DNA of 64,000 nucleotides, from positions 1 through 64,000 of the forward strand of contig PDZW01000016.1 of the NCBI GenBank assembly GCA_002753155.1. Reading direction: 5' to 3'. Below, piece by piece: positions 49,458 to 64,000 of this stretch (the first letter of the stretch is position 1; each line of letters begins with the position of its first letter). The stretch is from Alphaproteobacteria bacterium WMHbin7. Its GTDB lineage: Bacteria > Pseudomonadota > Alphaproteobacteria > Rhodospirillales > WMHbin7. The position numbers and the translations under genes are program-made. The notes under the pieces are model-generated. The model worked only from the letters and a program-made list of their open reading frames with translations, was not told the origin of the DNA and searched no databases.

Positions 49458-49937
49458 TCAAGCCGCTCTGTCAGCCCGAGGAGAGGTTATAAGGGTTAAG
49501 ACTGTCTCCAGCGCCAAATCCAGGGCACTGGCCACATCCCGGCTAAGTTCTTGACCATGCTTGAAATCCTGTCCCTCAACGCCCACGATCCATAATTGTT
49601 TTGGAAGCTGGTCAAGGTTGCGTGCCATCTCGACGGCCTCGGCCAATCCAAAGGCATGGCTGGAGAAAAGAATTAAATCAGGAGGGACCGAGTCGCGAAC
49701 GGCATCAATGACATGAAGAGAACCGGCAGGCTTTCCCGACGAAACGGCATCGATAACCACGGCCAGCGAACGTCCCTGCCAAAGGGCCATCAAACCCGTC
49801 CCTTCCCCGTGATGCAAAACGACATCGAGCGCAGGAATCTGTCGAGCCTTCAGTCGTTCGGCCAGAATCAAGCCAACGCCATCATCGCGCCTGAATTCAT
49901 TGCCGATGCCGACGACAAGACGGTTATTCGCGCTCAA
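49458..49937 (-). CDS. hoxW: [NiFe]-hydrogenase maturation protease
   Basis: 159-residue endopeptidase of the HycI/HyaD/HoxW family. It cuts the C-terminal tail of the large subunit after nickel insertion. The family start [17 protein letters not shown], nickel-sensing Asp in DDG and VIDAVSSG and a His in [11 protein letters not shown] are visible. The gene overlaps the end of the large subunit gene, whose C-terminal extension it should remove. Confidence 0.87.
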
Positions 49938-51219
49938 CGGTCAGCTTCAGGAAGTGGGTCGCACAGGAGATGCAGGGGTCATAATTGCGAATCGCCTGCT
50001 CGCAACGCCATTTCAAATCCTCGTCCGACAGGGCCAGATTTGCCGAGACCACCTTGAACAGGTCGCTTTCGATGATCTTCTGGTTCTGCGCCGTGGGAGG
50101 CATGATGCGCGCCGTTTTTACCAGCCCCTGATCGTCGATCTCATAGCGGTGATAGCAGATGCCCCGAGGCGCTTCCGTGCAGCCATGGCCGGTCGAAGCC
50201 TTGATGACCGGCTCGATGAAAGCCCGGTCAGGCTCGACATAGTTCTTGGCGATGGCCAGACCATCCAGACAGACCTGCAAAATCTCGACCGCGCGCACGA
50301 CGATGCTTTGGAAGGGATTGCGCACCACGGGTCCCAGCCCCGCCTCCTTGGCCGAGCTTTTCGCCTCGGGATGCAGGCGATCATAATTGATGGCGTAGCG
50401 GGCCAGCGGCCCGGTGTGATAGGGCTGCTTGCCGGGCTTCTGGAAGCCATGCAGGGCGTTGGAATGTTTGACATGCTCCTCGTCGAAATGATCGAGGAAT
50501 TGCGGCAGATCGATATCCAGCCCGCGGTTGGAAACCACGCGGCCTTCATGAATGGCATATTCGCTTTCATGGCGCAGGGCCACGAAATTATAATGCTGCT
50601 CGATATCGGGGAAGTTGAATCCGCCGACCAGGCGGATCGTGTCGTGGCTGGCCTCGATGGCCCATTCCAACTCTTCGATCAGGGGTTTGATCTCGGATTT
50701 TTTGGGAATGCGGTAAAAGCCGCCAACCCGCATATTCACCGGATGAATGGCGCGTCCGCCACCGATGGCCTCTAGAATATCGTTGCCGATTTTCTTCAAA
50801 CGAAGCGCTTTTTGCACCAAATCGCGGTTCGACTTGGCCAATTGAATGGCGTCGGGAAGACCCAGAAAATCCGGAGCATGCAGCATATAGACATGCAGCG
50901 CATGGCTTTCGATCCATTCACCGCAATAGATCAGGCGGCGAAGGGCTCGGACAGGCTCCGGCACAACGATGCCCAGGGCGTTTTCCATGGCTTGAATCGA
51001 CCCCATCTGATAGGCGATGGGACAGATTCCGCAGATGCGCGCCGTGATGTCGGGAACTTCCATGAAGTGGCGGCCACGTAGAAAGGCCTCGAAGAAGCGC
51101 GGCGGCTCGAAAATGCCGAAACGCACTTCCTTGATCTCATTGTCCTTGACGCGGACATAGAGCGATCCCTCGCCCTCGACGCGGGCCAGCGCATCGACCT
51201 TGATGACGCGGTTACTCAT
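49924..51219 (-). CDS. hyhL: group 3b-like [NiFe]-hydrogenase large subunit
   Basis: 431 residues carrying the Ni-Fe active site. L1 motif RICGIC at 61-66 and L2 motif DPCISCATH at 414-422 supply four cysteines. After His422 is a nine-residue tail (FLKLTVERE) to be removed by the protease encoded next. Overall it resembles the cytoplasmic, NADP-linked sulfhydrogenase type (group 3b), consistent with the hyhB-G-S-L gene order. It overlaps the small-subunit gene by eight bases. Confidence 0.9.
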
Positions 51220-51991
51220 GTTTCAGGCTCTCCTCACGGAAGGCTGGCGCATTGGCATTGAAGTTGCGGAAAGACCGCATGACAGAGGCCTTATCCTGAC
51301 CCAGCTCGGTCAGCAAGCGCTTGGCCAAGGCGTCTGTGTTGGGCGTTTCCATCGGGCCGAAGCAGCCAAAGCAGCCGCGATGCACCGAGGGGCAGAGATT
51401 GCCGCATCCGGCCTGCGTAACAGGCCCCAAGCAGGGCATGCCCTTGGCCACCATGACGCAGACGGTGCCTTTCTGCTTGCATTCCACGCATTCGGCAAAG
51501 TTGGGAATGTTGGGTTTTCTGCCGTTGAGCAGCGCGTTCAGCACTTCAAGCAATTGATATTTGTTGATCGGGCAGCCACGCAATTCGAAATCGACCTGCA
51601 CATGTTCGGCGATGGGGGTCGATGTATCCAGCGTCTCGATATAGTCGGGCCTGGCATAGACGATCTCAAGGAAGCCGTTGACATCTTTGAAGTTGCGAAG
51701 CGCCTGAATGCCGCCTGAGGTGGCGCAGGCGCCGATGGTGATCAGGGCCTTGGTCGATTTTCTGATCTGGCGGATCAGTTCGGCCTCGTGCGGCGTGGTG
51801 ATCGAGCCCTCGACCAGCACGACATCGAAAGGCCCCTTCATGTCCTTGCGGGTGGCTTCCAGGAAATAGGCAATCTCGACCGCATCAGTCACCGCCAGCA
51901 GTTCCAGCTCGCAATCCAAGAGCGACAGCTGACAGCCATCGCAGCTTGAAAATTTGAAGACGCCCAGCCTGGGTTTTGCGCGCGCTGTCAT
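51212..51991 (-). CDS. hyhS: group 3b-like [NiFe]-hydrogenase small subunit
   Basis: 259 residues, Fe-S electron relay. The proximal cluster motif [13 protein letters not shown] is near the N-terminus, and further cysteines lie in [54 protein letters not shown]. There is no Tat signal peptide, so the enzyme is cytoplasmic. The ATG at 51991 was chosen because the preceding gene ends two bases upstream. Confidence 0.9.
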
Positions 51992-51993
51992 TT

Positions 51994-52839
51994 TTATAGC
52001 TCCCGCACCGTGAAGGCATCGGCCACCTCGTCGAAGCGAAAGACCGGCCCATCCTTGCAGACGAAAGGCGCCCCCCACTGGCAATGGCCGCAAAGCCCGA
52101 TGCCGCATTTCATGTTGCGCTCCATCGAGACATAGATGCCGCTGCGGTCGATCCCAGCCCCCTCAAGTGCCTGAATGCCATAACGCATCATGATCTCAGG
52201 GCCGCAGACAAAGGCTACCGTATGCATGGGATCGAAGCCCGCCCCCTTGACCAACTTGGTGACCACGCCGACATGGCCGCCCCAGCCCGGCTCGGCGCGG
52301 TCCACCGTCACGCGCACCTTGGTATCGAAGCGGCCCCGCCACTTTTCCAATTCCTTGGGAAAAAGAATTTCCGAAGGCGAGCGCGATCCGTACAGCAAAA
52401 CCACCTTGCCGAAACGATGGCGATTGGCCAAGGCCATGTAAATGGCGGGACGCAGGGGGGCAAGACCCAGGCCGCCCGCCAGAATGACCAGATCGGAGCC
52501 GAAAGCCTCCTCGACCGGCCAAGGCTTGCCGAAGGGACCGCGAATGCCGACCGCCATGCCTTCGGACAGATTGCCGATCGCCTGGGTGACCGCACCCACG
52601 CGCCTGATGGTATGCACGATCTTCGATGTGTCGCTGGGATCACCAGAAATGCTGATCGGCACCTCGCCCGCGCCAAAGGTGTAGAGCATGTTGAACTGGC
52701 CGGGCTTGAAGGAAAAGCTTCCCCCACCCTCGGGCACCAGCTCCATGGTAAAGGAATCAGCCAGTTCCTTCCTGATCTTCTCGATGCGGAAGGGGCGGAT
52801 ATCCATGGGATCGGCCTGCGCTTGCATGGCGACGTTCAT
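51994..52839 (-). CDS. hyhG: hydrogenase FAD/NAD(P)-binding subunit (HyhG-like)
   Basis: 281 residues of the ferredoxin-NADP reductase type. An FAD-binding barrel ([23 protein letters not shown]) is followed by an NAD(P)-binding domain ([26 protein letters not shown]). A C-terminal [2Fe-2S] site is formed by [24 protein letters not shown] (CX4CX2CX7C). This is the subunit that exchanges electrons with NAD(P)H. It follows the cNMP-binding gene by four bases. Confidence 0.88.
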
Positions 52840-52843
52840 GCCA

Positions 52844-53320
52844 TCAACCCTTCTTCGCCGGACCGTAGAGATCGAACATCTGCATGCGGGCCGCATGCAG
52901 CCGGTGCGCCATGACCGGCACGAACCGCTTCATGACCTGATAGCCCAGGGCCGGATCGCTTTCCATCTTGCGGGTCAGGCAGGTGGCGTCGAAAGAGAGG
53001 GCGCGCACCAAAGTCTGCGCCCTGGCATCGAAGGCCCACTTATGAGGCGGCACCAGCCACGACCAACCCAGAACGCCCCCATCGCCCACGGTTTCCACCA
53101 TCAGGGGCGGACGCCCCGGCGCATGCACCTCGACCGCCACCACGCCCGAGCGGATGAGATAGAATTTTTTGGCATCGCCGCCTTCGCGAAACAGGAACTG
53201 CCCCGCCTCGAAACGCTCGTTGGCGGCACAGCCGATCATGACGTCCTTAAGCGCCTGATCCAGCCCCTCGGCGAAGGGATGCTCTTCCAGGATGCGGCCA
53301 AGATTGTCCACCTGAACCAT
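52844..53320 (-). CDS. cyclic-nucleotide-binding-domain protein within the hydrogenase operon
   Basis: 158 residues, essentially one cNMP-binding beta-roll (ERFEAGQFLFREGGDAKKFYLIRSGVVAVEV) with no DNA-binding domain. The phosphate-binding cassette region reads GVLGWSWLVPPHKWAFDARA, where the usual phosphate-contacting Arg is not in its standard place. It lies between the Fe-S subunit gene and the FAD subunit gene, four bases from each. Similar stand-alone cNMP domains occur in other group 3b operons. Its role is unknown. Confidence 0.8.
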   Translation of the reverse strand: MVQVDNLGRILEEHPFAEGLDQALKDVMIGCAANERFEAGQFLFREGGDAKKFYLIRSGVVAVEVHAPGRPPLMVETVGDGGVLGWSWLVPPHKWAFDARAQTLVRALSFDATCLTRKMESDPALGYQVMKRFVPVMAHRLHAARMQMFDLYGPAKKG

Positions 53321-53324
53321 GATC

Positions 53325-54434
53325 TTACGCTCCCTTTCCGATGGCCTTGGCTTCGGCCGTGATGTCGATACCCACCGGACACCAGATGATGCAACGCCCG
53401 CAGCCGACACATCCGGAATGGCCGAACTGCTTGACCCAGTGAGAAAGCTTGTGCGTCATCCATTGGCGATAGCGCGAGGCCCCGGTGTTGCGCACCGATC
53501 CGCCATGGATATAGGAATAATCGATACTAAAGCAGCTATCCCATTTGCGCGACCGCTCGGCCTTAAGGCCGGAAAGATCGGTCGTATCCTCAACCGTCGA
53601 GCAAAAGCAGGTGGGACAGACCATGGTGCAGTTGCCGCAAGACATGCAGCGCTTGGCCACGTCCTCCCAATGCGGGCTCTCCAGATTGGCCGCCAGCAGA
53701 TCGGCGACACCCGCAATCATGGCCCGCTTCTGACCCTTGGCGGCGGCATCGATCTGTGCGGCTGCAGCGTTCTTGTCGCCCTCTTCTGCCACCTGTTTGG
53801 GCAGGCGCTCCAGCACCGCGCGGCCCTTCTCGCTTCCCGCTTCCGCCAGGAAAACATGACGCGATCCGTCCAGAATTTCCGCAAGCTTCAAATCAAAGCC
53901 TTCGGAAACGTCCGGCCCGGTCTTTTGCGATGCGCAGAAGCAGGCATTGCCCGCATGATTGCAGGTGACGACAGCGATGAAACTGTTCTTGCGCCGCTCG
54001 GCATAGCCCTTGTCAGTATAAGGCCCGCCCTCGAACACCTTGTCTTGAATGACCATGGCCGCCAACTCGCAGGCGCGCACACCGATGAAGGCATAACGGG
54101 GCTGGGGTGATGAGTCCTTGACGACGCGAAAACCGTGGCCCGCCTTTTCCGCCGACCATAATTTCTGGCGGGCCGGATAGAGATGGGCCTTCAGACCCTG
54201 AACAGCTTTGGTATGGCCGAAGAGCTGGGCGTCGTTCCGGTTGGAAAGGCGGTAGTGCCCGCCCTCCTCCTCATCGCCCATGCCCCTTGGCAAATCATCA
54301 GGGCCGGAAACCGGCGCGTATAGGATGGCACCATCCTCTGCCCTGGGGCCTATCACCTGATAGCCCTCCTCGGTCAGAAGGGTGAACAAAGCGTCGAGAT
54401 CCTTGCGATCGATAACGGCCTGACTGTTCGCCAT
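53325..54434 (-). CDS. hyhB: hydrogenase Fe-S subunit (HyhB-like)
   Basis: 369 residues. The N-terminal region contains [16 protein letters not shown] and [17 protein letters not shown], and two C-terminal [4Fe-4S] motifs are [14 protein letters not shown] and [14 protein letters not shown]. It matches the beta subunit of sulfhydrogenase, the electron link between the hydrogenase dimer and the FAD subunit. The ATG at 54434 was chosen; the frame to 54560 runs into the promoter region. It is the first gene of the operon. Confidence 0.87.
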
Positions 54435-54639
54435 GTACACCTCGTCGGACGGAAACTGCCTAGGCGGACTATGCCACGCGGCTGCTGAAAATGCACTCAG
54501 GAAAACTGGGGTATAGACTAAAGTATAATGACAGAGGAGGCCCGCTGTGCGTTCCGTCACTGTGCGACCGGCAGCAAATGACTAAACTCGTTTTTACAGA
54601 GCGGAAATTTCGTCTCTGAGGTCTTATCGAAGGTGTGTC
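54435..54639. promoter_or_regulatory. divergent region, hydrogenase operon / small membrane gene
   Basis: 205 bases without a gene. A TATAAT-like sequence (54534-54539, plus strand) is the only recognisable promoter element; no convincing -35 box stands 16-18 bases before it. No FNR-type palindrome was found for the hydrogenase operon. Confidence 0.3.
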
Positions 54640-55017: not shown

Positions 55018-56799
55018 CTATTTCTTGATGGGCGGGACCAACTGACAACAGACCTGATTGCGCCCGCTCTGCTTGGCCTTGTAAAGAGCGGCGTCGGCGC
55101 GCCCCAGAAATTCGATCAGGCTTTCCTTCTGACGGCGCTCGGCCACCCCCAAGCTGGCCGTGACCTTTCTGCCCCGCATGGGCTCGTCGAATTCCAAAGC
55201 CTCGACCGCTTCGCGTAGACGTTCCGCAAAGGCGCCAATTTCCTGGGATGAACGTCCTGCCACGAAAACGGCGAATTCCTCGCCCCCCAGCCGCACGGGA
55301 AGGTCGCCCTGACGGCTGGTCTTGACCAGAACCTCGGACACCATTTTCAAGACAATGTCGCCCTGATTGTGACCGTAGGTATCGTTGACCGACTTGAAAT
55401 GATCGATGTCGAGAAGGGCCACACTGATCCCTGACCCCTTGTCGCGGTCGTGAATGGCAAACAGCCGCTCGACCATGTCTTGCATGTAAAAACGGGTGAA
55501 GAGGCCGGTCAGCGCATCGCGAATCGAGCGCTCGTAGAATTGCTGGCGCTCAAGGTCCAGTGTGCGGTAGATCGACTCGCGCTCGACCGCCACCTGAAGC
55601 GGGATGTTCATCTGCTGGACCATCTCCACCACTTCGGAATTGATGGCGATGCGCTTGGAGAGATGGATCAGCACCAAGGCCTCGATGGTTCCCTTGTCGG
55701 GCGAAAACAAGGGGATCAAAAGAGCGCTGTGGCGCCGCCCGGCATCGTCGGGACCGACCAGGGTGAAGTTCCATTTATGCCGCTTGCCCCAGCTTTTGGC
55801 ATCCTTGCCCAAGGTGGTGGCGACCAGCAAAGGTGGCGCCACCAAGGTTCCCTTGTAGCGGCTTTCCGGCCCCAGATGCAGCACCAGATCGTCATGGCTT
55901 TGCGAGCGTGAGAAGAACTCGATCAGATGGGCGGGAACGAAGCGCCTGGCCACGTCAAGCAGGGCGCGTGCCACGTCCTGGAAATCGCGGTACCCGGTCA
56001 TCGTCTTGGTAATGTCGGTCAGCATCTGGTTCAGACGCGACAGACGGTGGATGTCGGTATCCTCCTTGGCCAGGAGGTAAAGGCCGCAATCCAGCGTTTT
56101 CAGCCGGTCGATGATGGGGTGAATCAGGTCTTCGGGAATGATCGAGCCGTGTTGCGGGCAGATCATCTTGAGATCCAGCTTCTCGATGCGGGTCAGCGAA
56201 TGCAACAGCACGTCGCGGCTGGGGATATAGTGTTCGTGAAAGGGTCTTAGTTGTTCGAAATAATCGATGCTATCGGCCACCAGCGAGAAGCCATCGGTAA
56301 AGCCGCCGAAGATATCGCTGGAGAACAGGGCTCCCGTCTGCTCGTCAAAGGTCACGAAGGCGCCGGGAAAATGGGCGTAGGGGGTAAAGAGGAAGCGCAG
56401 CATCCGCCCCCCCAGATCCAGCTTCCAGTCATGCTCCTCCACCAGCCAGAAGGGCATCTTGAAGCCGTAATGCTTGATCAGGGTCTGGCCCCGCCAGTGC
56501 GAAATGACGGCGGCATCCTTTCTGGTCACCAACTCGTCGAAGCGCGGCATGGCCGAGGTGATATCGGGGTCCTGGTGATGGCAAACGAACCAGCGGATAT
56601 TGTTAAGATCGGTGACTTCGGCGATCTTCTTCAGCGTATGCTCGTAGGTCAGCATCGAGCCGGGATCGAACAGAATGGATTGATCCCCATGCTCGATCAA
56701 ATAGACATGGCACTGGAAGGCGTCGCCGGGCAGGTAATGCCCCACCCACCACACCCGATCCGCGATCTCGATCGCGTGATTGGGATCGGCGGATTTCAT
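55018..56799 (-). CDS. ODP-type diiron/metallo-beta-lactamase-fold protein with GGDEF domain
   Basis: About 593 residues. The N-terminal part (about 10-240) is a metallo-beta-lactamase fold of the flavodiiron/ODP group: CHHQDPDITSAM, YAHFPGAF, LFSSDIFGG and CPQHGSII provide His, Asp and His candidates for a diiron site, as in FprA and oxygen-binding diiron proteins. A GAF-like middle part (about 260-420) leads to GGDEF (about 430-585) with RLGGEEF. This suggests an O2- or NO-sensing diguanylate cyclase. A TTG at 56817 with AAGGGG upstream is an alternative start. Confidence 0.8.
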   Translation of the reverse strand: MKSADPNHAIEIADRVWWVGHYLPGDAFQCHVYLIEHGDQSILFDPGSMLTYEHTLKKIAEVTDLNNIRWFVCHHQDPDITSAMPRFDELVTRKDAAVISHWRGQTLIKHYGFKMPFWLVEEHDWKLDLGGRMLRFLFTPYAHFPGAFVTFDEQTGALFSSDIFGGFTDGFSLVADSIDYFEQLRPFHEHYIPSRDVLLHSLTRIEKLDLKMICPQHGSIIPEDLIHPIIDRLKTLDCGLYLLAKEDTDIHRLSRLNQMLTDITKTMTGYRDFQDVARALLDVARRFVPAHLIEFFSRSQSHDDLVLHLGPESRYKGTLVAPPLLVATTLGKDAKSWGKRHKWNFTLVGPDDAGRRHSALLIPLFSPDKGTIEALVLIHLSKRIAINSEVVEMVQQMNIPLQVAVERESIYRTLDLERQQFYERSIRDALTGLFTRFYMQDMVERLFAIHDRDKGSGISVALLDIDHFKSVNDTYGHNQGDIVLKMVSEVLVKTSRQGDLPVRLGGEEFAVFVAGRSSQEIGAFAERLREAVEALEFDEPMRGRKVTASLGVAERRQKESLIEFLGRADAALYKAKQSGRNQVCCQLVPPIKK

Positions 56800-56933
56800 G
56801 ATTTCTGCCAGTGACAAAAGATGCCCCTTCAATTATCTGGCCCGATGATAGGCCTTTGGGATCATGAAACAAAGATGAATCAAACATCTGTTTCGCCAAG
56901 CCGCACCGTGTTACATATTGCTAATATGACCAA

Positions 56934-58976
56934 ATGGGGGATTGTGTGACGTTGCTACTCGTGCTGGCCTTGGCTGCTCTGGCGGCCTGGATGGGGCTAT
57001 TAATGGGCCGCCATGGCTTTTGGCGGGCCGATCAAAGGCTTCCCAAGGCCCCCCTTCTGCTGCCTCGCAAGCAGCCCCAGGTGGTAGCGGTCATTCCCGC
57101 CCGCGACGAGGCAGCAACCATTGCCGCCGCCCTGCAATCCATTCTGTCCCAGGATTACGAGGCCCTTTCCCATGTCATCCTGGTCGATGACCACAGCAGC
57201 GACGGAACCGCCGAGGCCGCCCAATCCCTCAATGATCCCCGCCTGACGGTCATTTCAGCGCCCGATCTGGCCAAGGGCTGGGCGGGAAAACTGTGGGCGA
57301 TGGCCCAGGGAATCGCCAAAGCCAACGAATTGGCCCCAAATGCCCCCTATCTGTGGTTGACCGATGCCGACATCGCGCATGGTCCTGCCACCCTGTCCCG
57401 CCTGGCCGCCAAGGCCGAGGGCGAAGGGGCTGTTCTGGTGTCCCTGATGGCAAGGCTCAATTGCCAGGGATTCTGGGAACGTCTGCTTATTCCGGCCTTT
57501 GTCTTCTTTTTTCAAAAGCTTTATCCCTTTCCGGCTGTAAATGAAGCGACAACCAATCTGGCCGCCGCCGCCGGTGGCTGCATGCTGGTCAGAAACGAAG
57601 CCCTCACGCGAGCCGGGGGCTTAAGCGCTATCCGCGACCAGATCATCGATGATTGCGCCCTGGCCGCCATCTTGAAGCCCAAAGGGCCGATCTGGCTGGG
57701 ACTGGCCGAAGAGGACGAATCGCAAAGCCTGCGTCCTTATTCAGGTCTGGGCGGCATCTGGTCCATGGTGGCCCGCACCGCCTTTGTCCAGCTTCGCCAT
57801 TCCTGGCTGCTGCTGCTGGGCACCGTGCTGGCGATGAGCCTGCTCTATCTGGTCCCTCTCCTTGCGCTTGTCCTGGGCATCCTTGACGGCCAAGCCCCGC
57901 TGACTCTGGCTGGCGCCCTGGGATGGCTGTGCATGACCATCGCTTACAGCCCCACCATCGCCTATTACCGGATGAAGCCCTTCCTTTTATGGGCAGTCAC
58001 CCTGCCGGCCGCCGGGTTCTTCTATCTGCTGATGACCCTGGCTTCCGCCCTTCAGGGTGGCGGCGACTGGAAGGGGCGAAAGGGCGGCAAAGGGATCGAA
58101 GACCCGGATGCCGACCGCGCCTCGATGGAAATGGCCCGCGATGTCGTGGAAAAGGCGGGCACCTCCTTTTACTGGGCCATGCGTTCGCTTTCCAGCGAAC
58201 GGCGCGACGCCATTTTCGCCATTTACGCCTTCTGCCGGGCCGTCGACGACATTGCCGATTCCACCGCTCCGGATGACGCCAAACGCCATGATCTTGCCCA
58301 ATGGCGCCAAGGGATTGCCTGCCTTTACGAAGACAGGGAGACACCGGAAAACCTGCCTCTCCTGCGCGCCCTGAAGGCGCCGATCCGCCGCTTTGCCTTA
58401 AGCAGGAAGGATTTCGAGGCCATCATCGACGGCATGGAAATGGATGTGGGAACGCCCATCCGGGCCCCCTCGCGCGAACAGTTCGATCTTTATCTCGACC
58501 GCGTCGCCTGCGCCGTGGGCCGTCTGTCCAACCGGATCATGGGGGCGCCCGAGCGCATCGCCAACGCCCTGGCCAACAGTCTGGGACGCGCTCTTCAAAC
58601 CACCAACATCCTGCGCGATCTGGCTGAAGACGCGACCCTGGGGCGCCTTTACCTGCCGCTGCCCCTGCTGCTCAAATACCGCATCCAGGACACTGATCCC
58701 GCCCGGGTGCTGGCGCACCCCAACCTTCACGCGGCCTGCCTGGCCTTGGCGGCCGAGGCGCAAGACCTGTTCTTGCAATCGGCGGGGCTGCTGGGACAAA
58801 CGGATTCGCGCCCTCTGCGCCCCTCGCTGGCCATGATGACCGTCTACCGGCTGATTCTCAACCGGCTGATCGATCGCGGCTGGAAGGATCCCACGCAGCC
58901 GCTTGCCGTCTCCAAGCGCGAAAAATTATGGGCCGCCCTGCAAGGGGCTTTGAAGGCGGGACCGCCGACCGCCTGA
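56934..58976 (+). CDS. HpnB-HpnD fusion: glycosyltransferase plus presqualene-diphosphate synthase
   Basis: 680 residues in one uninterrupted frame. Residues about 5-380 are HpnB-like: an N-terminal membrane segment, a GT2 core (VVAVIPARDEAATIAAAL, VDDHSSDGT, WLTDADIAH) and three C-terminal membrane segments ending with GGGDWKGR. Residues about 398-665 are HpnD-like, with AVDDIAD and NILRDLAEDATLGRLYLP as the two Asp-rich motifs of squalene/phytoene synthases. An internal ATG at 58125 could be the old hpnD start. HpnD makes presqualene diphosphate for hopanoids. A GTG at 56946 is a possible alternative start. Confidence 0.82.
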   Translation: MGDCVTLLLVLALAALAAWMGLLMGRHGFWRADQRLPKAPLLLPRKQPQVVAVIPARDEAATIAAALQSILSQDYEALSHVILVDDHSSDGTAEAAQSLNDPRLTVISAPDLAKGWAGKLWAMAQGIAKANELAPNAPYLWLTDADIAHGPATLSRLAAKAEGEGAVLVSLMARLNCQGFWERLLIPAFVFFFQKLYPFPAVNEATTNLAAAAGGCMLVRNEALTRAGGLSAIRDQIIDDCALAAILKPKGPIWLGLAEEDESQSLRPYSGLGGIWSMVARTAFVQLRHSWLLLLGTVLAMSLLYLVPLLALVLGILDGQAPLTLAGALGWLCMTIAYSPTIAYYRMKPFLLWAVTLPAAGFFYLLMTLASALQGGGDWKGRKGGKGIEDPDADRASMEMARDVVEKAGTSFYWAMRSLSSERRDAIFAIYAFCRAVDDIADSTAPDDAKRHDLAQWRQGIACLYEDRETPENLPLLRALKAPIRRFALSRKDFEAIIDGMEMDVGTPIRAPSREQFDLYLDRVACAVGRLSNRIMGAPERIANALANSLGRALQTTNILRDLAEDATLGRLYLPLPLLLKYRIQDTDPARVLAHPNLHAACLALAAEAQDLFLQSAGLLGQTDSRPLRPSLAMMTVYRLILNRLIDRGWKDPTQPLAVSKREKLWAALQGALKAGPPTA

Positions 58977-59052: not shown

Positions 59053-59472
59053 ATGCTGACTTATGCACAGTCTGACCGGCCTGCTCTGACCGCGCCTTCA
59101 AGGCGTCATGGCCTGTTGTTCCGCTTGGCCGCCAGACTTGGGCTTGTCGTTCTGTCGCTCAATCTGCTGCTGGGCGTCCTTTTGCCGCAGCCGGGATTCG
59201 ATCTGGCCGACGGGCTGGAACTGTGCGTCACCCACCTTGAGAAAGAAGCCGATTCATCGGCGCAATCCTCTGGCCAGAAGGCCTTGGGCGCACCGCATTG
59301 CGTCTTCTGCCTGCAACATCATCAAGCGGCGGCCCTGCCGGAAAGAGCCGCCCAACCCGTCCTGGCCTCCCTGGCCGGGCTGACGGACTATCCACCCGGC
59401 ACCGCCGCCTTCCAACTGACAATCGATCCACCGGATCAATCCTCTCCCCGGGCTCCGCCCATCTTCTCCTGA
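59053..59472 (+). CDS. DUF2946-like small exported protein
   Basis: 139 residues. One hydrophobic segment (LAARLGLVVLSLNLLLGVLLP, about 27-47), a mature part with CVFCLQHHQ in mid-protein, and a Pro-rich C-terminus. The layout and CXFCLXXH motif match DUF2946, small proteins often encoded next to copper-related TonB receptors. The Cys/His cluster may bind copper; this is inferred. It follows the FNR box and precedes the receptor gene by 86 bases. Confidence 0.6.
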   Translation: MLTYAQSDRPALTAPSRRHGLLFRLAARLGLVVLSLNLLLGVLLPQPGFDLADGLELCVTHLEKEADSSAQSSGQKALGAPHCVFCLQHHQAAALPERAAQPVLASLAGLTDYPPGTAAFQLTIDPPDQSSPRAPPIFS

Positions 59473-59558
59473 ACCATTCGTCATCCGCGCTTCTGGCGGG
59501 CCTTTTCAGGCCAGCCTGAACTCTGCGCGGTCAATTCCGGTTTTCAGGAGCAAGCCCC

Positions 59559-61730
59559 ATGTCTGTTCGTTTCCTCAATACGTCCTCGTTACTGGCCCTG
59601 GCCGCCTGTGCGCTGACCATGTCGCCCGCCCGCGCCCAGCAATCGACCCCGCTGCCGCCGGTCTCCGTCGAGACCGCCAACCCCGTTGACGGCCTCAACC
59701 TGCCCATCTGCCACACCGAAGTCGGAAAAAAAGAGATCGACGCCAAATCGCTCTCCACCAGCGACACGGCAAGATTGCTCGACAACGTGCCCGGGGTCGA
59801 TACCTATACCGGCGGCGGCATCTCCGGTCTGCCCAGCATCCACGGCCTGGCCAGCGACCGCATCCGCACCGAGGTCAACGGCATGCCGATCACCTCGGCC
59901 TGCCCCAACCATATGAATCCCCCCCTGTCCTATGTGGCGCCGCAACGGGTCGAGAAGGTTCAGGTCTGGACCGGCATCACCCCGGTCAGCGAAGGCGGCG
60001 ACAGCATCGGCGGCACCATCAAGGCGGAATCACCCCCGCCGGTCTTTGCGAACAAGGGAGAGGCCTATCATACCGAAGGGAGCCTTTCCTCTTTCTACCG
60101 CAGCAATACGCACGGATTCGGAGGTGCTGTCTCGGCAACGGGGGCCACCGAGAATTTCAGCCTGACCTATTCCGGTTCGGGCGAGCGCGCCAGCGACTAT
60201 CACCGGGGCGGCAAGGATAATAATGCGGTGCTGTATTCGCGCCATATCAACCACAATCACGCCCTGTCCTTCTCGGCCCGGCATGAGAATCATCTTCTCA
60301 CCGTCGAGGGCGGATTGTCCTATATCCCCCAGCAGGGATACCCCAATCAACGCATGGACATGGTGGACAACAAGGGCAAATACATCAACACGCGCTACCA
60401 GGGCGATTTCGACTGGGGCAAGCTGGACGGGCGCGTCTATTACCACTACGTCACGCATGTGATGGATTTCATCGATGGTGCCGGAAAGTTCCCCACCATG
60501 CCGGGCATGCCGATGTATTCGGACGGAACCGACATCGGCTACTCGGTCAAGGCGGAAATCCCCGTCAATGAACGCGACACACTGCGCGTCGGCAACGAAA
60601 TACACCGCTTCATGCTGGATGATTGGTGGCCGCCTTACGGAACCGGCGGCATGTTTCCCTTGAGCTTCGAGAACATCAACAGCGGTGTGCGCGACCAGAT
60701 CGGCACCTTCGCCGAATGGGAAGCGAAGTGGTCCCCCCAATGGACCACGCTGTTCGGTGTTCGCAACGACACCATCATGATGGATACCGGGCGCGTACAC
60801 GGCTACAAGGACAACAGCACGACCTATACCATTGAAGCCGGAGCCTTCAATGATCGCGACCACGCCAAAACAGACATCAATTTCGATCTTACCGCGCTGA
60901 CCCGCTTCGAGCCCGACAAGAAAAGCACCTACGAACTGGGCTATGCCATGAAGACCCGCTCGCCCAATCTCTACGAACGCTACATCTGGTCGAGCGCCAT
61001 GATGCCTTCCGAAATGAACGGCTGGTACGGCGATGCCAACGGCTATACCGGCAGCATCGATATCGACCCCGAAACCGCCCATACCTTAAGCCTTTCGGCC
61101 GAATGGCACGATGACAGCCCTGCACAGAACTGGATGGCCCGCATTACCCCTTATGTCACCTATATTCGCGATTACATTGGCGTCAAACAGATCGGCTTTC
61201 TGTCCACCACGGCCAATACGGCAAAGCTGAAATTTTCCAACATGGACGCCGAACTGCACGGCATCGACCTGTCAGGCCACTACGCACTTTCCACGACGCC
61301 CGATTACGGTCGCTTCGTGATCAAGGGCACACTGGGCTGGGTGCAGGGACGCGTTCTCAATGCGCATCACGAAGAGAGCGGCTTTTACCATCTGATGCCG
61401 CTCAATTCGAAACTGGGGCTTGAACACAATCTGGGGGGCTGGAACAGCGTCATCGAGACGCGTCTGGTCGACAGCAAGACCCAGGTCGATAATCTGCGGC
61501 GCGAACCCAAGACGCCCGCCTACGCCCTCTTCAACCTGCGCTCCAGCTACAGCTGGGAGAACATCACCTTCGGAGCCGGAATCGATAATCTCTTCAACAA
61601 ACTCTATTACGAGCCGCTGGGGGGAAGGGCTTACGGCGATTACAACCAGTATTCCAATAACACGGGCGCCGTTGGCCCCGTGGCCGGCATGGGCCGATCC
61701 TACAATGCCGGCCTGACCATCAAGTTCTGA
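59559..61730 (+). CDS. OprC/NosA-type copper TonB-dependent receptor
   Basis: 723-residue outer-membrane receptor with signal peptide (MSVRFLNTSSLLALAACALTMSPARA), plug domain (about 45-165) and 22-strand-type barrel ending in ...GLTIKF with terminal Phe. The plug has NGMPITSACPNHMNPPLSY, including the CXXXM copper motif (Cys115, Met119), and the barrel has THVMD (His300, Met302), equivalent to the HxM pair of OprC. NosA/OprC take up copper, needed for nitrous oxide reductase and heme-copper oxidases. No TonB box was confidently identified. Confidence 0.85.
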   Translation: MSVRFLNTSSLLALAACALTMSPARAQQSTPLPPVSVETANPVDGLNLPICHTEVGKKEIDAKSLSTSDTARLLDNVPGVDTYTGGGISGLPSIHGLASDRIRTEVNGMPITSACPNHMNPPLSYVAPQRVEKVQVWTGITPVSEGGDSIGGTIKAESPPPVFANKGEAYHTEGSLSSFYRSNTHGFGGAVSATGATENFSLTYSGSGERASDYHRGGKDNNAVLYSRHINHNHALSFSARHENHLLTVEGGLSYIPQQGYPNQRMDMVDNKGKYINTRYQGDFDWGKLDGRVYYHYVTHVMDFIDGAGKFPTMPGMPMYSDGTDIGYSVKAEIPVNERDTLRVGNEIHRFMLDDWWPPYGTGGMFPLSFENINSGVRDQIGTFAEWEAKWSPQWTTLFGVRNDTIMMDTGRVHGYKDNSTTYTIEAGAFNDRDHAKTDINFDLTALTRFEPDKKSTYELGYAMKTRSPNLYERYIWSSAMMPSEMNGWYGDANGYTGSIDIDPETAHTLSLSAEWHDDSPAQNWMARITPYVTYIRDYIGVKQIGFLSTTANTAKLKFSNMDAELHGIDLSGHYALSTTPDYGRFVIKGTLGWVQGRVLNAHHEESGFYHLMPLNSKLGLEHNLGGWNSVIETRLVDSKTQVDNLRREPKTPAYALFNLRSSYSWENITFGAGIDNLFNKLYYEPLGGRAYGDYNQYSNNTGAVGPVAGMGRSYNAGLTIKF

Positions 61731-61736
61731 GAAGGC

Positions 61737-62468
61737 GTGACAAGCGCTGCGCACCAGGAAAGACCCCCGGGGAAAAACCACCCCCCGGGGGTCGAGCGCC
61801 CTGTTCTCTGGGCCGGGTTGGCCTTCTCCGTGATCGTTCACGGCGGGCTGGGCTTTGGGATGCTGGCAATGACCGGCACGATGCCGACATCTCCCCTGGA
61901 AATCGAGAAAGCGATCGAGATCGACCTTGTCGATGCAGCACTTCTGACAAAACCGACCCCGGCAGAGGAAAGTCCCGATCCTAAGCCGCCCGCCCAACCC
62001 GTAAAGCGACGTCTTCCCCCCCCAACGCCCACACCCACGCAGGTTGAGCCGGAAAAGAAGGCGGACGACAGCGCCATTCCCCCCGTCTTGGCTGAGGTTC
62101 CGGCGCAACGAGCAGATCCCCTCCACGCCCCAGCCATGGCGGCAGTGCCCATCTCACCTCCTTTGAATCCTGCTCTGGGCCGCGACCAGTTGCTGGGGCG
62201 ATTCGCCCAGGCCCTGTGGCGTCATATACAGGCTTACAAACCCGCCCGCTTGAGCGCAGAGGGAAGCGTCACCATCTCCTTCACCATCTCCGCCGACGGA
62301 CGCCTGATCACAGCGAAAATTGTCTCCTCAAGCGGCAATGCCCGCCTGGACGGGGCTGCCCTTGGCTCTGTAAGCTTGGCCCAGCCCTTCCCGCCTCGCC
62401 CGCGTGAGTTGGGGTTCGAGCCTTTGACCTTCACCCTTCCCTTCCAGTTTCAGGCCCGTTCCCCTTGA
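61737..62468 (+). CDS. tonB: TonB-like energy-transducing protein
   Basis: 243 residues from a GTG start. A membrane anchor (VLWAGLAFSVIVHGGLGFGML, about 22-42), a Pro/Lys-rich spacer (PKPPAQPVKRRLPPPTPTPTQ), and a C-terminal TonB domain (WRHIQAYKPARLSAEGSVTISFTISADGRL) are visible. It begins six bases after the receptor stop and presumably energises it. The codons near the start form a strong hairpin (61762-61793). Confidence 0.8.
   Translation: MTSAAHQERPPGKNHPPGVERPVLWAGLAFSVIVHGGLGFGMLAMTGTMPTSPLEIEKAIEIDLVDAALLTKPTPAEESPDPKPPAQPVKRRLPPPTPTPTQVEPEKKADDSAIPPVLAEVPAQRADPLHAPAMAAVPISPPLNPALGRDQLLGRFAQALWRHIQAYKPARLSAEGSVTISFTISADGRLITAKIVSSSGNARLDGAALGSVSLAQPFPPRPRELGFEPLTFTLPFQFQARSP
61762..61793 (+). 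repeat. perfect 11-bp inverted repeat at the start of tonB
   Basis: GACCCCCGGGG (61762-61772) and CCCCGGGGGTC (61783-61793) with a ten-base loop, no T-run. It lies inside the proposed coding region (residues about 9-19, ERPPGKNHPPGVERP) and could slow translation or transcription between receptor and TonB. Confidence 0.7.
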
Positions 62469-62543: not shown

Positions 62544-64000
62544 ATGACAGTCTCGGCCCTCAGATCCTCTCCCGATTGTCCTGAAGAGGGCGCAGAGCGC
62601 CTTGGTGAGACCTTGTCGCTGGAGAGCATCGAGCGCACCGTCGAAACGGTGGCCGAGGGAATCTTGAAGCGCCAGAAGCCGGACGGGCATTGGGTCTACG
62701 AGCTGGAAGCCGATGCCACCATTCCGGCCGAATACATCTTCCTCAACCGCTATCTGGATACGCCTGAGCCCGAGTTGGAGGCCAAGCTGGCCAATTACCT
62801 GCGCTCGATTCAGAATCCCGACGGCGGATGGCCGCTCTTCGACAAGGGGGCTTCCAACATCTCGGCCTCGGTGAAGGGCTATTACGCGCTCAAGATGGTG
62901 GGCGACGATATCGACGCTTCGCATATGGCCAAGGCCCGCGCCTGCATTCTTGCACTGGGTGGCGCCGAGAAAGCCAATGTCTTTACCCGCTTTGCCCTGG
63001 CCCTTTTCGGCCAGGTGCCCTGGAAGGCCGTCCCGGTCACGCGTCCGGAAACCATCTTGCTTCCGCTCTGGTTCCCGTTCCACATCTCGAAAGTATCCTA
63101 CTGGTCGCGCACCGTGATGGTGCCTCTGTTCGTGTTGTGCGCCTTGAAGCCCCGCGCACGCAACCCAGAGGGAATCGGCGTACAGGAATTATTCGTAACC
63201 CCGCCTGAAAAGATCAGGAAATGGCAAGCCAATCCCTTGGGCTCGCGCCTGGGGCAAAAGCTGCTGATTCTTGATCGCATCCTTCATGCCATTGAGCCCC
63301 TCTTCCCCAAATTTCTGGAACGGAAAGCCATCGCCCGCTGCATGGAATTCACGCTGGAGCGCCTCAATGGCGAAGACGGCCTGGGCGCCATCTTCCCCGC
63401 CATGGCCAACAGCGTGATGGCGATGGATGCCCTGGGCTATTCGCACGACGATCCCCATTTCACCGTCGCCCGTAAATCGATCCGCAATCTGGTGGTGGAA
63501 CATGGCGACCGGGCCTATTGCCAGCCCTGCGTCTCGCCGGTCTGGGATACCGGCCTGGCCGTCCATGCCCTGCTGGAAGCGGGCCTTCCGGGCGACCATC
63601 CCGCCATCGCCAAGGCGACGGACTGGTTGACGAAGCGCCAGATTCTGGACGTCGAAGGTGACTGGATCTGGCAACGCCCCGGCCTTCGTCCCGGCGGCTG
63701 GGCCTTTCAGTACCGCAATGATTATTACCCCGATGTCGACGACACCGCCGTGGTGGCGCTGGCTCTTCACCGCGCCAACCCCGCCCTGTCGCAGGAGTCG
63801 GTGTCACGCGCCGCCGAATGGGTTGAAGGCATGCAATGCGGCAATGGCGGCTGGGCCGCCTTCGACGCCGAGAACGAGCATTATCATCTGAACCACATCC
63901 CCTTTGCCGATCACGGCGCCCTGCTCGACCCGCCGACACTGGATGTCAGCGCGCGCTGCCTGAGCCTGCTGGCCCAGTTGGGCTATGACAAGAACAGCCC
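62544..64000 (+). CDS. shc: squalene-hopene cyclase (3'-truncated by the window end)
   Basis: About 485 residues are visible and the frame is open to the last base. After a 30-residue lead the cyclase alpha-barrel repeats are clear, with QW-type motifs (QKPDGHW, QNPDGGWPLF, CGNGGWAAFDAEN). The catalytic acid motif appears as DVDDTAV (DXDDTA). It cyclises squalene to hopene in the hopanoid pathway, the same pathway as HpnD. The start ATG at 62544 lacks a good ribosome-binding site. It is 75 bases after tonB and separated from the hpnB-hpnD gene by the copper operon. Confidence 0.92.
   Translation, partial: MTVSALRSSPDCPEEGAERLGETLSLESIERTVETVAEGILKRQKPDGHWVYELEADATIPAEYIFLNRYLDTPEPELEAKLANYLRSIQNPDGGWPLFDKGASNISASVKGYYALKMVGDDIDASHMAKARACILALGGAEKANVFTRFALALFGQVPWKAVPVTRPETILLPLWFPFHISKVSYWSRTVMVPLFVLCALKPRARNPEGIGVQELFVTPPEKIRKWQANPLGSRLGQKLLILDRILHAIEPLFPKFLERKAIARCMEFTLERLNGEDGLGAIFPAMANSVMAMDALGYSHDDPHFTVARKSIRNLVVEHGDRAYCQPCVSPVWDTGLAVHALLEAGLPGDHPAIAKATDWLTKRQILDVEGDWIWQRPGLRPGGWAFQYRNDYYPDVDDTAVVALALHRANPALSQESVSRAAEWVEGMQCGNGGWAAFDAENEHYHLNHIPFADHGALLDPPTLDVSARCLSLLAQLGYDKNS

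Follow-up and report, generated by a model that had tools for sequence, protein, structure and literature searches.

We analyzed a 64,000-nucleotide window (positions 1 to 64,000 of contig PDZW01000016.1) from the draft genome of Alphaproteobacteria bacterium WMHbin7, a member of the Rhodospirillales. Reading the open frames of the window identified a gene on the forward strand at 56934..58976 that starts with ATG, ends with TGA (58974-58976) and encodes a single protein of 680 amino acids. The initial annotation had described this frame as a fusion of the hopanoid proteins HpnB and HpnD with an expected size of 70-75 kDa; the mass predicted from the sequence is 73.9 kDa. No internal stop interrupts the frame, and the stretch from the WKGR motif at the end of HpnB (residues 379-382) to the AGTSF motif in HpnD (residues 408-412) is open throughout. 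The protein consists of an HpnB part (residues 1-383, 56934..58082), a linker (residues 384-404, 58083..58145) and an HpnD part (residues 405-672, 58146..58949), all on the forward strand.

Both domains are essentially complete. The NCBIfam model for HpnB (TIGR03469) matches residues 9-383 with 486 bits (curated cut-off 379) and covers profile positions 2-383 of 386. The model for HpnD (TIGR03465) matches residues 405-672 with 286 bits (curated cut-off 279) and covers positions 2-265 of 267. Competing models score far below HpnD on this half, with the HpnC model reaching 102 bits (cut-off 250). Pfam concurs, placing Glycos_transf_2 (PF00535) and SQS_PSY domains in the fusion. The HpnB half carries the nucleotide-sugar motifs of GT2 glycosyltransferases (D86, D144-A-D146 and I238-D239-D240), all of which are invariant in the 14 fusions we compared. 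The HpnD half, a putative presqualene diphosphate synthase, contains two Asp-rich motifs, DDIAD (438-442) and NILRDLAED (558-566, with RDLAED at 561-566), which align with those of CrtM and are likewise invariant across the 14 fusions. That one half might be a dead remnant, making this a pseudogene fusion, is a reading for which we found nothing positive; the profile matches are complete and the catalytic residues of the two halves are invariant across 14 fusions, which makes it very improbable.

The fusion is genuine, and its open frame is well outside what chance would give. The source assembly is fragmented (a draft of 73 contigs, 87% complete), and a sequencing or assembly error that deleted a stop or frameshift was one of the refutations named in the initial annotation, which also suggested examining relatives. 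All three other genomes of the genus that we examined contain a colinear, stop-free frame of 686-689 codons (stop to stop) over both domains, with 68-71% identity to the WMHbin7 protein. The same open frame is thus present in four species, and stop-free fusions also occur in eleven further species, so we rejected sequencing error; the chance that one produced this frame is negligible. The linker has the same length in all four members of the genus examined and keeps the pattern DPDxDRA, in which the codons for D, P and A change at the third position only. These third-position changes indicate that the sequence 5' of a candidate internal start for hpnD is translated. Pairwise codon comparisons across the genus count 52 nonsynonymous and 25 synonymous differences in the linker region (residues 383-404), which evolves faster than the domains.

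The initial annotation also raised the prospect of separate products starting at the ATG at 58125..58127 on the forward strand, which it correctly placed at codon 398. This ATG and a second one at codon 400 (58131) directly precede the HpnD domain and the linker is disordered, so HpnD might additionally be made alone from either codon or released by cleavage in the linker. We consider such a two-product arrangement improbable. The three congeners all have CTG at codon 398, one of them has GCC at codon 400, and the junction of one fused relative (L042) is devoid of ATG, GTG and TTG. A scan of anti-Shine-Dalgarno duplex energies found no Shine-Dalgarno sequence above background at 58125, where the energy is -3.3 kcal/mol and the background of the window has a mean of -2.2 and a 10th percentile of -5.8. 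The same scan gave -7.2 kcal/mol for a hydrogenase-subunit start and -6.3 kcal/mol for a receptor start in the window, though the scan is weak evidence when taken alone, as the start of the fusion itself also scores poorly (0.7). Translation from the hpnB start meets no stop. We therefore rejected 58125 as an internal start, since it is neither conserved nor preceded by a ribosome-binding site, and judge that it is not used.

Fused and separate forms of the two genes coexist in the order. Colinear matches over both domains were found in 29 of 317 genomes of the order, including the source genome. Reading these frame by frame established at least 15 species, in three families, in which a single stop-free frame holds both domains. 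Four belong to the source genus, ten to a second family (f18, seven genera) and one to a third (f19). The second family is probably Rhodospirillaceae, since one of its fused members is Pararhodospirillum oryzae (L069, with a linker identical to that of L047). Two members of a single genus in this family (L052 and L056) retain the fusion in genomes of just 1.3-1.4 Mb that are estimated to be 97% complete, and hopanoid synthesis seems to have been kept in these strongly reduced genomes. Separate genes take several forms. Two congeners of the fused f19 species have a TAG between the genes. In G004, the sister genus of the source genus within the same family, the genes are separate and in different frames, with the TGA of hpnB lying inside an ATGA overlap with hpnD. 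In most other loci that we read from the order, hpnB and hpnD are adjacent yet separate. The statement in the initial annotation that both genes are normally separate therefore holds in general, but the fusion is not a one-off. A class-wide sampling of 385 genomes yielded no fusion outside the order at the threshold used. We found no match indicating that a phage carries the fusion, and the sole plasmid record matching the bulk of the query at a single locus has separately annotated genes.

The fused state arose more than once. We inferred a quick tree from 78 concatenated HpnB and HpnD pairs (IQ-TREE, LG+C20+F+G4), which assumes that both genes moved together. The distribution of fused and separate states on this tree requires at least four changes, and all four are forced by strongly supported branches. 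Constraining all fused sequences to form one clade lowered the log-likelihood by 167 units (p-AU 5e-93), and the AU test thus rejected a single ancient origin for all fusions. Counts of changes cannot by themselves separate gain from loss, but four gains are the simpler reading because separate genes are the rule outside the fused groups. Given the ATGA overlap in the sister genus, fusion in the source genus required no more than losing that stop and shifting the frame. We conclude that the fusion has evolved repeatedly from adjacent genes within one bacterial order.

We examined the rest of the hopanoid pathway in the genome. The initial annotation noted HpnC and HpnE as absent, which is true of the window and reflects where its edges fall: both are encoded on another contig (C69; HpnC 252.5 bits, cut-off 250.45; HpnE 345.5 bits), so we rejected their loss from the genome. 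An hpnC-hpnE pair located apart from hpnB and hpnD is present in all five genomes of the family. The squalene pathway formed by HpnC, HpnD and HpnE is complete in this genome and split between loci. A squalene-hopene cyclase gene (hpnF/shc) occupies 62544..64000 on the forward strand (TIGR01507, 537 bits on the part inside the window) and extends to 64526 of the source contig (C60). It is followed by hpnG (TIGR03468, 184.5 bits, cut-off 187.1), and HpnH is encoded on contig C37. The order on the source contig is hpnBD, a gene for a DUF2946-like protein, a TonB-dependent receptor gene, a TonB gene, the cyclase gene and hpnG. In Pararhodospirillum the order is hpnC-hpnBD-hpnE-shc-hpnG. A third protein with the squalene/phytoene synthase fold, divergent from hpnC, is encoded at L008:158-967 on the reverse strand. 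Its match to HpnD is weak (53 bits), and it may lack catalytic activity and be related to proteins of the complex I assembly factor type.

Several neighboring genes have other apparent functions. The DUF2946-like, receptor and TonB genes occupy 59053-62468, between hpnBD and the cyclase gene; the best NCBIfam match of the receptor is a copper-receptor model, below its cut-off. One congener (L170) has the receptor, and two (L169 and L171) matched for the DUF2946-like protein only. In the sister genus, hpnD lies immediately before the cyclase gene. Divergent from hpnBD, on the reverse strand at 55018-56832, is a gene that combines an ODP-type metallo-beta-lactamase domain with a GGDEF diguanylate cyclase domain; it adjoins hpnBD throughout the genus with 82-86% identity. 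Farther upstream on the reverse strand (49924-54560) are an apparent four-subunit cytoplasmic NiFe hydrogenase and a cyclic-nucleotide-binding-type protein, with families assigned by eye. The hydrogenase-like set is strongly conserved in a congener (G003, 76-93%).

The structure of the fusion was predicted with AlphaFold2 on 60 sequences. The model has a mean pLDDT of 93.3 and a pTM of 0.71, with pLDDT below 50 only at residues 385-390, and on this basis the protein is predicted to comprise two rigid folded domains joined by a short flexible linker. In a Foldseek search, the C-terminal half aligned with CrtM-type synthases at a TM-score by target of 0.85-0.90, and hits to the N-terminal half included PcManGT, WrtF and processive GT2 synthases. 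From the predicted secondary structure and hydropathy, the HpnB half has an N-terminal membrane helix (2-25), a GT2 domain (approximately 45-260), an interface helix (272-286) and three hydrophobic helices (291-318, 321-344 and 357-374). The loop between the first two of these hydrophobic helices is negatively charged, and the charge is +1.4 after residue 344 and on average +4 after residue 374. This distribution suggests that the loop is periplasmic and that the segments after residues 344 and 374 are both cytoplasmic, in which case helix 357-374 would be re-entrant or interfacial. We infer that the linker emerges on the cytoplasmic side, which fits HpnD, whose substrate is cytosolic. If all three hydrophobic helices that follow the cytoplasmic GT domain instead crossed the membrane, HpnD would be placed on the periplasmic side, contrary to the model proposed below.

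We propose, with a probability of about 0.75, that the fusion is a bidomain inner-membrane enzyme whose HpnB half anchors HpnD beside HpnC, HpnE and the cyclase. The fusion would have formed when a stop was lost between adjacent and probably translationally coupled hpnB and hpnD genes, bringing both into one frame. Its N-terminal half would be a membrane-embedded, glycosyltransferase-like enzyme of the GT2 fold that tethers an otherwise soluble HpnD to the inner membrane at a 1:1 ratio. The C-terminal half would condense two farnesyl diphosphates to presqualene diphosphate, with both halves presumably active. Presqualene diphosphate would pass to HpnC and HpnE, and the resulting squalene to the membrane-bound squalene-hopene cyclase. 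The fusion may have been retained by selection because tethering puts the product of HpnD where the next enzymes use it. The proposal in the initial annotation that both enzymes are brought together at the membrane is soundly reasoned. A serious rival concerns why the fusion exists and leaves the nature of the protein unaffected: the stop may have been lost several times by neutral read-through, with the halves acting as if they were separate and the join adding no function. Such fusions would need little, as most loci of the order with separate genes have hpnB and hpnD side by side, and linker sequences are poorly conserved between families. We nevertheless regard a neutral origin as the less probable explanation, as all four genomes of the genus examined (68-71% identity) and at least seven f18 genera have kept the fusion.

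The recurrent fusion bears on the role of HpnB. Its gene is one of few in hopanoid clusters that still have no established function (PMC12583986), and its participation in hopanoid synthesis lacks direct evidence (PMC5462960). One speculative idea, which we think more likely wrong than right, is that HpnB acts at the squalene-forming step itself, either by anchoring or assisting HpnD or by using a prenyl or triterpene intermediate there, and is not a late glycosyltransferase of the hopanoid tail. If so, the recurring fusions would provide the first genetic clue to where HpnB belongs in the pathway. That HpnB has repeatedly been joined to the enzyme committing carbon to squalene points to a physical link early in the pathway, whereas a glycosyltransferase would be expected to act late, in sugar decoration. 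The fusion also matters for annotation pipelines in which hpnB and hpnD are scored as two genes, because one profile may mask the other.

We compared the fusion to known systems. The HpnB-HpnD pairing appears to be new: we found no report of it in the literature searched, with prior mention possible in subscription papers or database architecture lists. In hopanoid clusters, hpnB and hpnD as separate genes (TIGR03469 and TIGR03465) belong to the same families and share their order and direct adjacency, whereas WMHbin7 has one reading frame and one protein. The closest solved structure to the HpnB half by sequence is PcManGT (6yv7), a membrane GT2 mannosyltransferase that was also the first glycosyltransferase in the fold search with the fusion; it differs in being archaeal and unfused and has approximately 21% identity to the HpnB half. 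Staphylococcal CrtM and related dehydrosqualene synthases (2zco, 8is6) share the fold and the Asp-rich motifs of the HpnD half. Unlike the fusion, CrtM-type enzymes are soluble, single-domain proteins, and their product is dehydrosqualene. Fusions that contain HpnD are already known, as HpnC-HpnD (HpnCD) proteins have been published from Acidobacteria SD2, Rhodospirillum centenum and some Actinobacteria (PMC5462960). These resemble the WMHbin7 protein in being hopanoid fusions that include HpnD and recur in unrelated groups. In HpnCD, however, the partner is the sister synthase HpnC, which performs the next step of the pathway, whereas the partner in WMHbin7 is the membrane glycosyltransferase-like HpnB.
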